Shown: in pieces, positions 11,298 through 25,913 of the stretch
Numbering within the stretch: position 1 is the first letter of the stretch
How the letters are laid out: each line of letters opens with the position of its first letter
From: a virus
DNA: 25,913 nt
Virus record (IMG/VR): IMGVR_UViG_3300045999_010435
Coordinates: 1-25,913 of that record
Direction: 5' to 3' (one strand)
Translations under genes and position numbers: made by a program
The notes under the pieces: model-generated
Told to the model about the DNA's origin: nothing
What the model saw: only the letters and a program-made list of their open reading frames with translations
Databases searched by the model: none

Positions 11298-11822
11298 ATG
11301 GCTTGCAATTTTACAGTTCAAACAATCGATAAAACAGAATGTATAGGTAACTCACTCTCTAAAATTAATGATAATTTTAGAGATTTGAAAAATTATGCTT
11401 GTCAAAATTTTAATACTATTGATTCTCTTAATGCTCGTATTGCTAATTTAGACGATAGAATTGTTGCATTATCAGGCATAACTGTTCCAGGAACTGCGAA
11501 AGCTTGGGTAAAGTTTGACGGGACCCGAGATACCACAAACACTAATTCAACTTTTAATACAAATAGATTTGTATACAGTTCGTTTAATATTGCCACAGCT
11601 TATCGCAAGAGTAAAGGAGATTACAGAATCACATTTAGTACACCTTTTCGTGCTTCAAACTACCTTGTTTTAGGTACAAGTAGTCAAAAGCAAGCTTCAA
11701 CCGGATTATTTACCTGGCTTCAACCGTATCGATACTCTACCACGTTTGTAGATGTTCGTGTAACAAGTATTAATGCTGCTAGTGTTATCGACGCTGAACA
11801 TATATCTCTAATCATCTACTAA
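11298..11822 (+). CDS. Small fibre-like protein with Cys-Ile-Gly N-terminal motif (copy 1)
   Basis: 174 aa. Residues ~11-30 contain TECIGNSLSKINDNFRDL, the N-terminal motif shared by seven genes of this window (acidic-Cys-Ile-Gly-x-Ser-(L/V) ... I-N-x-N-F). A short predicted helix follows (LNARIANLDDRIVAL, coiled-coil-like). The C-terminal ~100 residues begin AKAWVKFDGT and include VYSSFNIA, then YRITFSTPF, a beta domain strongly similar to that of the next gene (AKATVAFDGT, VYSSFNIA). It is probably a trimeric fibre with N-terminal attachment motif, coiled coil and beta tip. No signal or membrane segment. It and the next gene look like a tandem duplication. Confidence 0.75.
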   Translation: MACNFTVQTIDKTECIGNSLSKINDNFRDLKNYACQNFNTIDSLNARIANLDDRIVALSGITVPGTAKAWVKFDGTRDTTNTNSTFNTNRFVYSSFNIATAYRKSKGDYRITFSTPFRASNYLVLGTSSQKQASTGLFTWLQPYRYSTTFVDVRVTSINAASVIDAEHISLIIY

Positions 11823-11823
11823 C

Positions 11824-12348
11824 ATGAGTATTTGTTTTAATCCGTTTGCTGTACAAACAATTGACCTTGACGAATGTATTGGCTTGTCCCTGGCAACTAT
11901 CAACACAAATTATCAACAGCTACTACAAGAAAACACAGCTACTTGTGAAGAGTTAGATCTTATTTCAAATAATCTTGCAAATCTCTATACTAGGTATGAA
12001 AGTCTTACCTCACAGCGTAGAGGAATGGCTAAAGCTACAGTAGCTTTTGATGGAACGGGAACAGCTACACCTTCTGTATATTCTTCTTTTAATATTGCTA
12101 GAGTATTAAGAAGAAGTACCGGGGTATTTGAACTATCATATTTGTCAGCATTTCCTAATGCAAACTATGCCCTCATTGGAACAAGCATGCTAACAGCTAC
12201 TTCTGCTACAAACTTTTCATGGGTTCAACCTACAACAGCATTTGCAACTACATCAGCTACTATAAATATAAGAGACTTATCTGGAACTTTTGTAAACCCG
12301 GAATATGTATCTATAGCGGTTTATTCAAATCAGAATATGTTTTTATAA
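11824..12348 (+). CDS. Small fibre-like protein with Cys-Ile-Gly N-terminal motif (copy 2)
   Basis: 174 aa, same length and architecture as the upstream gene. It has FAVQTIDLDECIGLSLATIN followed by an Asn-Tyr pair, then a helical segment (LDLISNNLANLYTRYESL), then a beta domain with AKATVAFDGTGTATP, VYSSFNIA, and YALIGTS. The C-terminus has YVSIAVYSNQ against HISLIIY in copy 1. The ATG lies 1 nt after the upstream stop with no Shine-Dalgarno, so translation is probably coupled. Divergence from copy 1 is high outside the motifs, suggesting an old duplication with diversifying tips. Likely a structural adhesin. Confidence 0.74.
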   Translation: MSICFNPFAVQTIDLDECIGLSLATINTNYQQLLQENTATCEELDLISNNLANLYTRYESLTSQRRGMAKATVAFDGTGTATPSVYSSFNIARVLRRSTGVFELSYLSAFPNANYALIGTSMLTATSATNFSWVQPTTAFATTSATINIRDLSGTFVNPEYVSIAVYSNQNMFL

Positions 12349-12357
12349 ATTTAATAT

Positions 12358-12642
12358 ATGTCAAGATTATTTACAGGTTATATCGATGAAGATGAATGTA
12401 TAGGGGACTCTTTAGGACAAGACCTCTCGGTACCAGGAACTATAAACGGCAACTTTTACAATTTAGATACCAATCTAAATAATTTAAGTGCCACAACTAT
12501 ATCATTACTTATACAATACAATCAGCTTAAAATATCCCACAACACACTTCTGCAAAGTTTAACAAGTGTTGGAGCACCCGGGACGACATATACATCCTTA
12601 AGCACAACTTTTAGAAATCTTTCTGCTTTTATTTTACCCTAA
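12358..12642 (+). CDS. Short fibre-like protein with Cys-Ile-Gly N-terminal motif (copy 3)
   Basis: 94 aa. It begins with the shared motif DEDECIGDSLGQDL, then GTINGNFYNLDTNLNNL (Ile-Asn-x-Asn-Phe), with a seven-residue insertion relative to its paralogues. A coiled-coil-like helix follows (SLLIQYNQLKISHNTLLQSL). It stops after a short Thr/Ser-rich end, with no beta tip like those of the two preceding genes. It is either a truncated fibre or a minimal attachment/trimerisation unit. It follows the previous stop by 9 nt and is the last gene before the gap carrying the acidic protein's late box. Confidence 0.7.
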   Translation: MSRLFTGYIDEDECIGDSLGQDLSVPGTINGNFYNLDTNLNNLSATTISLLIQYNQLKISHNTLLQSLTSVGAPGTTYTSLSTTFRNLSAFILP

Positions 12643-21680: not shown

Positions 21681-22316
21681 ATGGCTAACAGGTATCCGCA
21701 ATATGTTGAACCCATAAACCTGACTGAAAATGTCGGTGATTCCCTTATTAAGATAAACAATAACTTTGAAAATCTTAAAAGAGGTTATTGTGACTTAAAA
21801 CAACAAATAGACGATATTGTACAAATTAGAACATTTTTTTATTTTGGTCCTAACGCTCAAGCAGATTCCACTTCCGGAATGCAAAATTATACAACATCCC
21901 GACCCTCTAATTTCACAATACAAACCTTTGTAAATGATGGTTCTCAGTTAAATTTACCTTCAATGTCAGATCCTGGAGATATAGCATTTGTTGTATATCA
22001 AAAAACGGGTTACCTATCACAGCAAGCAGTTAGAACCACATCAGGTTACGTACCTGTTCTAGGCACATCCGCTGCTGGTGCTGGTGTATCCACTTCGAAC
22101 GACCCTATTTATAACCCACCGCTACTAAAATATGCAGCCTGGTCTACAACTACTCCAGATAGATATAATTTATTTTCACCTGCATATGTAATTTGGAGAT
22201 TAACAGCAGGACAAAACAAAACATATACTGTAGATTCTGGTTGGCCGAAATTTACTCAAGCCGAGACTTTAACAACACCAAACTGGAATCAGCCTTGGAA
22301 ATGGGCTAAATACTAA
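21681..22316 (+). CDS. Tandem fibre paralogue A
   Basis: 211 aa. The N-terminus carries the shared motif in variant form, TENVGDSLIKINNNFENLKR (Cys replaced by Asn), then LKQQIDDIVQIRTFFYFGPN. The core SRPSNFTIQTFVNDGSQLNL, then PGDIAFVVYQKTGYLSQQ, a variable loop (~130-160, Ala/Ser/Gly-rich), and the C-terminal FSPAYVIWRLTAG, YTVDSGWPKFTQAE, NWNQPWKW are shared with the next two genes. Family-wide conservation of both flanks with an unrelated middle suggests an adhesin whose loop is the specificity region (inference). No signal or membrane segment. Confidence 0.78.
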   Translation: MANRYPQYVEPINLTENVGDSLIKINNNFENLKRGYCDLKQQIDDIVQIRTFFYFGPNAQADSTSGMQNYTTSRPSNFTIQTFVNDGSQLNLPSMSDPGDIAFVVYQKTGYLSQQAVRTTSGYVPVLGTSAAGAGVSTSNDPIYNPPLLKYAAWSTTTPDRYNLFSPAYVIWRLTAGQNKTYTVDSGWPKFTQAETLTTPNWNQPWKWAKY

Positions 22317-22327
22317 AACAATTTAAC

Positions 22328-23071
22328 ATGATTGCCTGTAATGCGAGTTTAGAACCAGTTTATGATAATGAATGTTTAGGGGATTCTGTACCTAAAATAA
22401 ATAATAATTTTCTCACACTGCAAACCATTCTATCTGGTCTCAGACAAAGAACTGATGATAGAATTGAAGTTAGAACATTTTTTTATTATGGGCCTAATTC
22501 ATCAGCACCCGGCGCAGCAGGTAGATTAACCTCCCCCGGTAAAGGTGCAGGCAATTCTATTATAAATCAAAATTCTCCAGCAGCATCAGGCATGGATGAC
22601 AATCAAACAACTCGTCCTTCAAACCTAACTATTGAAGCTTTTGTTAATTCCCCCACTCAACTAAACTTATCCCAAATATCTCAGCCCGGAGACATTGCTT
22701 ACGTCATATACCAAAAAACAGGATTTTTAAGCTCTATACTACAAAATGCAATTGTTGCTAGTCAACAAAACCCTGTATATTCTTCGTATCAAAATGTTTA
22801 TGGTAAAAAAGGTCAACTTGTCGGTACAATACCAAGGGCACTGTTAACCCCAGCAGGTAAGGGTGGTTATAATGTAAACGCCCAATGGATTACTACAGAT
22901 GATATTGTTATGCAATTATCACCTGTCTTTATTATTTGGAGATTAACCTGTAGTAATCAACTAGCTTATATTGTTGATCAAGGGTTTCCTAAATTCCATA
23001 GAGCACAAACCACAAATACAATTCTTTGGAATCAACCACAACTTTGGAATCAATTTACTGAATATGTCTAA
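22328..23071 (+). CDS. Tandem fibre paralogue B
   Basis: 247 aa, 11 nt after paralogue A. N-terminal motif DNECLGDSVPKINNNF, then DDRIEVRTFFYYGPNSSAPG. Relative to A there is a Gly/Ser/Pro-rich insertion of ~25 residues after FYYGPN. Shared core: TTRPSNLTIEAFVN, then LSQISQPGDIAYVIYQKTGF. Variable loop (~137-190) includes YSSYQNVYGKKGQLV and Gly/Asn-rich sequence, then LSPVFIIWRLTCSNQLAYIV, GFPKFHRAQ and LWNQPQLWNQF. The 3' end overlaps the next gene by 8 bp, so translation is likely coupled. Confidence 0.78.
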   Translation: MIACNASLEPVYDNECLGDSVPKINNNFLTLQTILSGLRQRTDDRIEVRTFFYYGPNSSAPGAAGRLTSPGKGAGNSIINQNSPAASGMDDNQTTRPSNLTIEAFVNSPTQLNLSQISQPGDIAYVIYQKTGFLSSILQNAIVASQQNPVYSSYQNVYGKKGQLVGTIPRALLTPAGKGGYNVNAQWITTDDIVMQLSPVFIIWRLTCSNQLAYIVDQGFPKFHRAQTTNTILWNQPQLWNQFTEYV

Positions 23072-24380
23072 TTGCCCTGTTAATATTGATCTAATTTACG
23101 ATGACGAAAATATCGGTGATTCGTTAAATAAAATTAATAAAAATTTTACAAATATATTGTCAGGTGCCTGCCTTATAGAACAGCAGCTTGATAATATGGT
23201 TAATATTAGAACTTTTTTCTATTATGGACCTAATGCACCGACTGAATCTGAAGCCACTTGGGCTGGTGCTCAAACTGATGCAATATCTCGCCCTTCTTCT
23301 GCTACTATTGAAGCTTTTTTAAATAATAATACCACAGGCCCAATGCCTGGGTTAGGTCTTCCAGCAATTTCAGAAATAGGGGATATTGCTTACGTTATTT
23401 ACCAAAGAACAGGTTGGTTAACACAAACACAACTTCACGATCGAAGCGGTACTGGTTCTTTACCGTTCCAAAGAACAGTTCGTAGAAGAGTGGTTAGAAG
23501 TATTGGTATCGGTGGAGGTAAGTGCTGGGTAGCCCGAGAAATTTATAATCATTATAATCCCAAGTGGCAGATATTTAGAGAGTGGCTTTATACAAAAAGC
23601 CCGCAATGGCTACAAGATCTCTATACAAACAAAGGAGAGCAATTTGCAAAATATATTTCTAATAAACCAACTCTTAAAACTGTTATACGTAAACTAATGG
23701 ACAGTATAGTACCGAATGACAAACTTATAGAGTATTCATACGTTTCAACACCACAAGGCCCTGTTCGTATTGAAGATATTAGAGTTGGAGATACCATTTT
23801 AGGGTTTGTTCCTAAGACTGGAGAAGTCGGGGAATATAAAGTTAAAAAAATAACTAAACCTACTAAAAAAACTTTAATACGGATTGTTCACGAATATGGA
23901 GAACTTGTAGTAAATAGAAATCAGTGGCTGTATTCTGAAACAGGCCGTATTGGGGAAAACAAAAAATATATAGAAGCTAAGAAAATTGCTAAAAACGATC
24001 AAGTGATACTTGAGTGTGGTACAAGGAGTAAAGTTATAAGTGTTGAAACATTTGAGTCAGATTATACCTTACCTGTTTTAGAAGTAGATGATGTTTATAA
24101 CTATATATTAAACGGAATAAGAGTGCATAACGGAGGAGGTGGTGGAGGCGGAGGTTCAAGAGTAACCTACGAACCTTTTGTAGAAACATATTATGTAGGA
24201 TATTCTTGGTCTACAAGAATAACTGATACCTACAATTTTTATGCACCTACATTTGTAATTTACCGTTTAACATATAACGGTACCGCGTATATTATGGATT
24301 CAGGATATCCTAAATTTACTCAAGCCTCAACAGCATCAACTGAATTGTGGAACAGACCTGAGCTTTGGACTACATATTAA
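23064..24380 (+). CDS. Tandem fibre paralogue C with inserted CFI-box-like and Hint (intein-like) domains
   Basis: 438 aa from the ATG at 23064, chosen because it begins MSNCPVNIDLIYDDENIGDS, matching the paralogues; an upstream in-frame ATG at 22971 would run inside paralogue B. Fibre part 1 (1-~125): LNKINKNF, NIRTFFYYGPN, EIGDIAYVIYQRTGWL. Fibre part 2 (~365-438): FYAPTFVIYRLT, MDSGYPKFTQAS, LWNRPELW. Between them: an Arg-rich linker, GIGGGKCWVAREIY starting a CFI-box-like segment (154-213), a Hint-like domain (~224-356) with STPQGPVRIEDIRVGDTILG and VYNYILNGIRVHN, and eight Gly. The Hint lacks Cys1 and has Asn284-Arg-Asn-Gln287 where block B has Thr-x-x-His, while His355-Asn356 at the C-end is kept. 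Domain names are by motif; autoprocessing is uncertain. Confidence 0.85.
   Translation: MSNCPVNIDLIYDDENIGDSLNKINKNFTNILSGACLIEQQLDNMVNIRTFFYYGPNAPTESEATWAGAQTDAISRPSSATIEAFLNNNTTGPMPGLGLPAISEIGDIAYVIYQRTGWLTQTQLHDRSGTGSLPFQRTVRRRVVRSIGIGGGKCWVAREIYNHYNPKWQIFREWLYTKSPQWLQDLYTNKGEQFAKYISNKPTLKTVIRKLMDSIVPNDKLIEYSYVSTPQGPVRIEDIRVGDTILGFVPKTGEVGEYKVKKITKPTKKTLIRIVHEYGELVVNRNQWLYSETGRIGENKKYIEAKKIAKNDQVILECGTRSKVISVETFESDYTLPVLEVDDVYNYILNGIRVHNGGGGGGGGSRVTYEPFVETYYVGYSWSTRITDTYNFYAPTFVIYRLTYNGTAYIMDSGYPKFTQASTASTELWNRPELWTTY
23508..24155 (+). other. CFI-box + Hint insertion in fibre paralogue C
   Basis: Codons ~149-364. Cys154-Trp-Val-Ala-Arg-Glu begins a segment like the bacterial CFI-box C-terminal domain (Cys-aromatic-(I/V)-Ala ..., then Tyr ... 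Asn-Pro-x-Trp ... Phe-Arg-x-Trp, Gly-Glu, Lys-x-x-x-(I/V)-Arg). The Hint part is ~132 residues with no space for a homing endonuclease between blocks B and F. Gly-rich runs border both ends. Paralogues A and B have unrelated, shorter loops at this point. Confidence 0.75.
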
Positions 24381-24381
24381 T

Positions 24382-24876
24382 ATGGAGATAACCTTTGAAA
24401 ATATTTACGAGTATCTAGAAACAAATAAACACAAATTAAATTTTATTCGTCGAGATGATGTCGAAGCTGGAGACTTCGGTACAAGCCAGTTTAGTACTTT
24501 GTTTTGCAATGAAACAAGAGATGATATTCCGGAAGAAATAAAAACCTTTCTTATTGAAAAAGCTTTTAAAATTACAAAAAGAGATTACGACTTTATACAA
24601 ATTCAAAAATATGAAATCGGGGATTACATTCTCCCTCATAAAGATCCTTACCCTTGCTTTGGTCTTGTAATGTTATCAACTTCTAATCAAGATGGGCTGG
24701 TAGTCCAGGGCCGCGACAATAAATATACATTAATACCAGATAAAGTAGGGACTTTCGTTGATGTTCCTAAATTTACATGGCACTGGGTAAACCCGGTGAG
24801 AGAAAAGACTCGTTACTCTGCTGTTTACGGTCTTCACCCTCTTAATGATAAAATTGATGAACTTTTAGACCAATGA
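24382..24876 (+). CDS. 2OG-Fe(II) oxygenase (prolyl-hydroxylase-like)
   Basis: 164 aa. The double-stranded beta-helix metal triad is visible: His86-x-Asp88 in GDYILPHKDPY and His134 in FTWHWVNPV, with Arg144 in REKTRYSAVYGLH in the position that binds the 2-oxoglutarate carboxylate. GLVMLSTSNQDGLVVQGRDN forms the core strands. These enzymes hydroxylate substrates using O2 and 2-oxoglutarate, releasing CO2 and succinate; substrate unknown. Phage-encoded members are common in marine T4-like genomes. It starts 1 nt after the Hint-bearing fibre and its stop overlaps the next gene (ATGA), so it is inside the adhesin operon. Modification of Pro/Asn/Lys in a fibre protein is a reasonable but unproven inference. 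Confidence 0.9.
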   Translation: MEITFENIYEYLETNKHKLNFIRRDDVEAGDFGTSQFSTLFCNETRDDIPEEIKTFLIEKAFKITKRDYDFIQIQKYEIGDYILPHKDPYPCFGLVMLSTSNQDGLVVQGRDNKYTLIPDKVGTFVDVPKFTWHWVNPVREKTRYSAVYGLHPLNDKIDELLDQ

Positions 24877-25408: not shown

Positions 25409-25913
25409 ATGCCTGCTGATTACACTACAACCTGTGGTATTGCTTTAAAAGACATTCTCGGTAATGATTGTATCGGGGATACAAAAGATGTTATTAACAA
25501 TAACATAAGAGCTCTTGGTACTGCAGTTTGTTCTGTGAGTGGTCTTGTTTATGCTCCAGGATCAACAGATACCATTCAGCAAAGTATTATCGGTCGTATA
25601 GCTTACCCGAGTTTAAAAGATGATGCAGTAACAACTGCAAAACTTTCAGCACAAGCTGTAACAACAAACAAAATCGCATTAACAGCTGTAACAACAGATA
25701 AAATAGCTTTAAGTGCTGTCACTGCAGATAGAATTAATTTAGTTACAAGTCTTAGCACAAACGGCTATCAAATAATGCCCGGTGGTCTCATTATGCAGTG
25801 GGGCCGGTTAGGACCTTTTACAACACAGGTATCTCCTTCTGCAACTTTTCCAATACCTTTTCCTACTCAATGTATCCATGCGCAGGTAACAGCGAGATTA
25901 TTTACAGCAGCCT
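25409..25913 (+). CDS. Tail fibre protein, 3' truncated by the window
   Basis: 168 residues visible; the frame is open to the window end. N-terminus: ILGNDCIGDTKDVINNNIRA, the shared Cys-Ile-Gly ... Ile-Asn-x-Asn motif. Residues 73-110 are near-perfect 10-residue repeats (AVTTAKLSAQ, AVTTNKIALT, AVTTDKIALS, AVTADRIN), a shaft pattern common in phage fibres. Then STNGYQIMPGGLIMQWGR, which matches the start of the gp53-like tail fibre C-terminal (tip) domain (G-Y-x-x-x-P-G-G-L-I-x-Q-W-G). The rest of the tip lies outside the window. Start ATG is 2 nt after the upstream stop. Confidence 0.82.
   Translation, partial: MPADYTTTCGIALKDILGNDCIGDTKDVINNNIRALGTAVCSVSGLVYAPGSTDTIQQSIIGRIAYPSLKDDAVTTAKLSAQAVTTNKIALTAVTTDKIALSAVTADRINLVTSLSTNGYQIMPGGLIMQWGRLGPFTTQVSPSATFPIPFPTQCIHAQVTARLFTAA
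25625..25738 (+). repeat. Tandem ~30-bp repeats in fibre shaft
   Basis: Four consecutive units of ten codons (the last partial) beginning Ala-Val-Thr. The DNA is similar between units (GCTGTAACAACA recurs), suggesting expansion by slippage or recombination. Confidence 0.8.

Follow-up and report, generated by a model that had tools for sequence, protein, structure and literature searches.

A CFI-box-like module and an apparently splicing-dead Hint domain inserted in a loop of a probable fibre protein of a T4-superfamily phage

Does an intein-type domain that lies inside a probable fibre protein of a phage still process this protein, or is it kept for its fold? The question is raised by a DNA stretch of 25.9 kb (25,913 nucleotides; hereafter the window), whose source is a T4-superfamily phage (major capsid protein, PHROG 138, E 8e-87; head maturation protease).

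Tandem paralogues and the insertion

Three tandem paralogues are localized directly 3' of the major capsid gene, all on the + strand: (i) paralogue 1 (21681..22316, 211 aa), with a short loop and no insert; (ii) paralogue 2 (22328..23071, 247 aa), with a moderate loop and no Hint domain; (iii) paralogue 3 (23064..24380, 438 aa), fibre-like and insert-bearing, whose start (ATG at 23064) overlaps the stop of paralogue 2. Paralogue 3 can be aligned with the two others over its first ~121 and its last ~60-80 residues; with both flanks aligned, identity is 46% to paralogue 1 and 41% to paralogue 2. The coordinates and frame given in a sequence-only reading of this locus are correct, as are the flanks shared with the two neighbours and the short loops of the latter. 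The C-terminal fibre part of paralogue 3 corresponds to residues 365-438 (24156..24377, +).

Neither PHROG nor Pfam gave a match on the fibre parts of the paralogues. The sole link to fibres that was found is a similarity over 38 N-terminal residues (E 2e-7) to a neighbouring protein, which itself matches a tail-fibre PHROG. The paralogues would be virion (probably fibre) proteins, and the terms fibre and adhesin tip, like any place in the virion, are used here in this presumptive sense. Their N-terminal motif (...ECIGDSL.KIN.NF...) also occurs in the window at 11298-11822, 11824-12348, 12358-12642 and 25409-25913; being common to several genes, it suggests a common attachment domain.

A search of IMG/VR with the alignment of the three paralogues gave seven further contigs (L272-L278), the matches in L274 and L278 being identical. 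The gene order is kept in these contigs, i.e., capsid, paralogue 1, paralogue 2, paralogue 3, oxygenase-like gene, next gene, and the identity of the capsid proteins is 80-97% where readable. Orthologues of paralogue 1 are found just 3' of the major capsid gene in L272, L273, L274, L275 and L277. The gene that follows paralogue 3 in the window (24382-24876) is 2OG-Fe(II)-oxygenase-like and is kept at this place in L273-L278. Syntenic orthologues of paralogue 3 in L273, L274/L278, L275, L276 and L277 have no insert; the CFI-plus-Hint segment of paralogue 3 is therefore an insertion.

The insert proper covers about residues 150-364 of paralogue 3 (length about 205 residues) and occupies the loop that is short in paralogues 1 and 2. 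The proposal of a large insert in this loop is thus confirmed; its extent has to be corrected, since the Arg-rich linker TVRRRVVRSIGI (residues 138-149; 23475..23510, +), previously counted in it, is native fibre sequence. The counterparts of this segment in insert-less orthologues read YRVRRIGIG, PIYRRIGIN and PQYRKIGIS, compared to VRRRVVRSIGI in the window. As insert-bearing and insert-less proteins alike have an Arg-rich stretch that ends in IGI, the insert starts after it. The Gly-rich entry described earlier is indeed present in the window (GGGK, residues 150-153; 23511..23522, +) but is not conserved: it is missing in L272, which reads RRIGIA-CWVARE. At the other end, the insert is closed by a run of eight Gly (residues 357-364; 24132..24155, +), the residue at +1 being Gly and not Cys, Ser or Thr.

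The paralogue 3 of L272, i.e., an orthologous fibre-like protein, contains the same CFI-plus-Hint insert, up to the end of the contig inside the Hint domain, before block F. A CFI-to-Hint DNA pattern, scanned with the record of the window left out, gave 43 stretches; among the newly fetched loci from these, L272 is the only contig where a CFI module is followed by a Hint domain. Searches of viral contigs with the insert alone gave no matches, the single-sequence patterns being probably too narrow. The CFI-Hint fusion is thus rare: two contigs were found (the window and L272).

The equivalent loop of paralogue 2 in L277 holds an unrelated insert of ~100 residues or more, and larger copies of paralogue 2 are also found in L274 and L275. 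Since the loop in L277 holds a different large insert, such loops accept domains, and the loops of the paralogues look like general domain-acceptor sites.

The Hint domain and its catalytic residues

The Hint domain covers residues 220-356 (23721..24131, +). By profile-profile comparison (hhalign) with 26 polyGly-flanked phage Hints, it is recognized with a probability of 99.5% (E 3.9e-22); the Pfam PT-HINT score on the window is just under the cut-off. The AlphaFold model has a mean pLDDT of 84.8, most of the Hint being above 90. Its input alignment contained trimmed Hint rows and three CFI rows; the single-sequence model (pLDDT 30) was not used, and a MAFFT alignment in which the Hint rows were mixed with numerous CFI rows was dropped, the former having fallen onto the CFI part. 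The best Foldseek matches are BIL and intein domains (BIL2 6y75, E 1.7e-10). The fold comparison, which covered model residues 75-212 (model residue 75 is protein residue 222), gave Z 17.9 to the RecA intein and Z 17.5 to the Clostridium thermocellum BIL, with many inteins and BIL domains at 17-18. Both marks of the Hint superfamily are found, i.e., the horseshoe fold and the block A/B/F/G sequence pattern. Profile comparison, predicted structure and fold searches thus agree with the identity proposed from the sequence, and the model indicates a genuine Hint fold for residues 220-356. Chance is excluded for this identity because of the hhalign E-value and of the independent second contig.

The columns conserved at ≥ 90% in the alignment with the 26 polyGly-flanked phage Hints are Cys1, a His, the block-B Thr and His, the block-F Asn and His, and the terminal V-H-N. 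In the window: (i) Lys220 (23721..23723, +) is at the position of the intein Cys1, and the nucleophile is lost; this position is also obtained by structure, model residue 75 (protein 222) being superimposed on intein residue 3; (ii) Pro266 is at the column of the conserved His; (iii) block B reads N284-R-N-Q287 (23913..23924, +) instead of T-x-x-H; (iv) block F has Val338 and Tyr345 (24075..24098, +) instead of the conserved Asn and His. By alignment with the phage Hints, His355-Asn356 (24126..24131, +) is the sole catalytic pair kept; the terminal V-H-N is intact and Gly357 is at +1. L272 shares the losses as far as it is readable (Lys, Pro, Asn, Gln), its block B being N-R-D-Q.

Class 1 inteins need Cys1 or Ser1 and class 2 inteins use Cys+1 (PMC4031507); class 3 inteins use a Cys at F:4, and type-A BILs use Cys1 plus Asn (PMC4031507). 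Of the class 1 residues, the window Hint has the terminal His-Asn, and neither Cys1/Ser1, T-x-x-H nor a Cys, Ser or Thr at +1. With regard to class 3, position 4 of block F is Val338 and not Cys; with regard to type-A BILs, His-Asn and Gly at +1 are present and Cys1 is missing. As judged from its residues, this Hint thus has the published requirements of none of these types (classes 1, 2 and 3, type-A BILs). The only intein-type reaction left would be a slow cyclisation of Asn before Gly357, without the usual block-F His. The sequence-only reading had suggested that the Hint domain matures or crosslinks the fibre; the residues do not support this, Cys1, block-B T/H and block-F N/H being lost and Gly being at +1.

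A Hint domain in a virion protein, rather than in a replication enzyme, had also been considered as exceptional. It is not: IMG/VR gave 55 Hint copies that have a VHN-Gly5 exit, in dozens of contigs. About 41 of the 55 directly precede gpJ-like tail-tip sequence (L100, the one checked, has Pfam gpJ domains) and 8 are in Gly-rich fibre-like sequence. The Hints of L088-L151 (e.g., L100 around 1134-1520, L105, L119) are catalytically complete, with Cys1, T..H and VHN-Gly; L105, L119 and L131 have two Hints in tandem. These polyGly-flanked Hints are predicted to be type-A BIL-like. The window Hint shares with them the Hint fold, VHN followed by a Gly run and the location in a virion protein (34% identity to the nearest). 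They differ from it in having Cys1 immediately behind the entry Gly run, as well as T..H and the block-F N and H, all lost in the window; moreover they have no CFI module, and most are found close to the N-terminal end of gpJ-like proteins. A tree of the Hints places the window on a long branch beside the polyGly-flanked Hints with catalytic residues, with weak support (0.39-0.59). With the type-A BIL of C. thermocellum (PDB 2lwy), the fold (same Z of 17.5), the terminal His-Asn and the absence of a +1 nucleophile are common (PMC4031507, PMC7765530), whereas the chemistry of type-A BILs needs the Cys1 that the window Hint does not have. No literature on Hint domains in tail-tip proteins was found, within an incomplete coverage.

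The CFI-box-like module

The module preceding the Hint covers residues 154-226 (CWVAREIY...EYSY; 23523..23741, +) and has four helices in the AlphaFold prediction. It is 50% identical to the C-terminus of HMO-2011 gp25. Across 42 phage modules, the invariant columns are CWVARE, W, FR, Y, G, P, K and M. The CFI-box-like identity proposed previously is confirmed, although below the family threshold: with NCBI CFI_box_CTERM (NF041770), the copy of the window has 17.1 bits against a curated cut-off of 40 bits, and 39 of the 42 phage modules match this model at E ≤ 0.1 (best 4.8e-5), below the cut-off. By its sequence, the module is best described as a sub-threshold, divergent relative of CFI_box_CTERM. 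That CWVA could be a disguised Hint block A was ruled out, the two domains not being homologous (CFI vs. Hint, hhalign 0.1%).

The search for further copies of the module gave 339 viral candidates, and 80 of them were fetched. All 80 non-window copies are C-terminal, after a Gly-rich or hydrophobic stretch; in a further viral set the location is C-terminal in 30 of 31, the exception being L272. Internal copies (25) are found among genome contigs. In the window the module is internal, being followed by 212 residues, and thus departs from the C-terminal location of CFI_box_CTERM. Compared with the CWVAREVYG modules of this family (HMO-2011 gp25, others, Planctomycetota), it has the same motif and the same length, and a Gly-rich stretch precedes in nearly all contexts; it differs from the other phage copies seen, which are C-terminal, in being internal and fused to a Hint.

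The CWVAREVYG module is C-terminal in many phage proteins (L008-L087, L280-L313; HMO-2011 gp25 is L001:2102-4222). One carrier (L079) matches the DNA ejection protein PHROG 4287 (E 4e-14). Each of three carriers examined is directly followed by two proteins, one medium and one very long, an order that would be expected for podovirus ejection proteins. In bacterial genome contigs (L314-L392, mostly Planctomycetota), the module follows long Gly/Met-rich repeats and is often internal; some of these contigs have it twice in one protein. No literature on the CFI box was found, within an incomplete coverage.

Origin and role of the insert

The comparison of these data makes it probable that the insert is a splicing-dead, exapted Hint plus a CFI module, kept as a structural or binding part on the loop rather than for self-processing. 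An exposed, insertion-tolerant loop of a tandem virion protein would have received a CFI-box-like helical module joined to a phage Hint with polyGly flanks. The Hint would then have lost its splicing chemistry, with its fold kept and purifying selection continuing. It may now be a rigid structural or binding decoration that holds the CFI module at the surface of the particle; the surface position and the binding or decoration role of the insert are what we infer from its context. As for the fusion itself, many phage Hints are placed between Gly runs (GGGG-CFxxxT ... VHN-GGGGG) and the Planctomycetota CFI modules start as Gly-rich-CWVARE; the window CFI still has the tail of its own C-terminus (cf. 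...RKIRYAY at the stop of HMO-2011). A GGG-CW CFI module may thus have taken the place of the initial residues of a Hint of the GGG-CF type, a replacement that a join at these similar Gly-rich/Cys-aromatic starts would explain. One point goes against a structural role: His355-Asn356 and the Gly run are kept, and both would be superfluous in a purely structural domain.

A broader proposal is rather unlikely. Hint and CFI box would belong to a pool of polyGly-bordered plug-in modules that phages maintain and that move among virion proteins (tail tip, ejection protein, fibre); two of them would be fused here, the dead Hint scaffolding the display of the CFI module, with possibly a slow Asn-Gly cleavage that frees one end after assembly.

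Cleavage by itself, i.e., C-terminal autocleavage in which Asn356 would cyclise and cut before Gly357, leaving a nicked fibre with the CFI-Hint arm attached on one side, is unlikely. It would agree with the kept His355-Asn356 and the flexible Gly8 that follows, and also with published data: C-cleavage of inteins can be separated from the N-terminal step (PMC4031507), and the type-A BIL domains, which have no nucleophile at +1, carry a terminal His-Asn (PMC4031507). However, the block-F His said to activate Asn (PMC4031507) is Tyr345 here, and the T/H of block B are lost.

It is quite unlikely that the insert is a decaying selfish or neutral element, i.e., a dead intein-like element merely tolerated by the fibre loop. 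The eroded catalytic residues, the occurrence in two contigs only and the long branch in the tree would fit such a decay, but the frame is kept in both contigs. Moreover, dN/dS between the window and L272 is 0.152/1.67 for the N-part of the fibre, 0.235/1.6 for CFI and 0.162/1.39 for Hint (two sequences, dS near saturation), i.e., ratios near 0.1-0.15 in the three parts. With the same limits (two sequences, dS near saturation), both modules are under purifying selection and the insert is plainly constrained, the amino-acid constraint in CFI and Hint being strong and similar to that of the fibre. No homing endonuclease match was found.

Active maturation or crosslinking, with Cys154 of the CFI module as a substitute nucleophile, is very improbable. 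Cys154 is at the start of the insert, as is Cys1 at the start of the polyGly-flanked Hints; nevertheless Lys220 holds the Cys1 position by sequence and structure, none of the helper residues (T, H, N, H) is kept, no Cys, Ser or Thr is at +1, and the same Cys is invariant also in CFI modules without Hint. Finally, an ordinary fibre domain that merely resembles a Hint is hardly credible: the Pfam scores just under cut-offs would allow it, but it is already contradicted by the hhalign E-value and by the Z scores to many inteins and BIL domains.

If the structural or binding role is true, the window would clearly exemplify how an intein-type domain can become a structural part, its fold kept and its chemistry lost, in a virus surface protein. 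The clean empty-site orthologues allow a comparison with the insert-bearing fibre-like protein. The analysis also highlights a larger set, i.e., the catalytically complete Hints with which tail-tip proteins begin in dozens of phage contigs, and ties the orphan CFI-box motif to ejection-type proteins of phages and to Gly-rich proteins of Planctomycetota.
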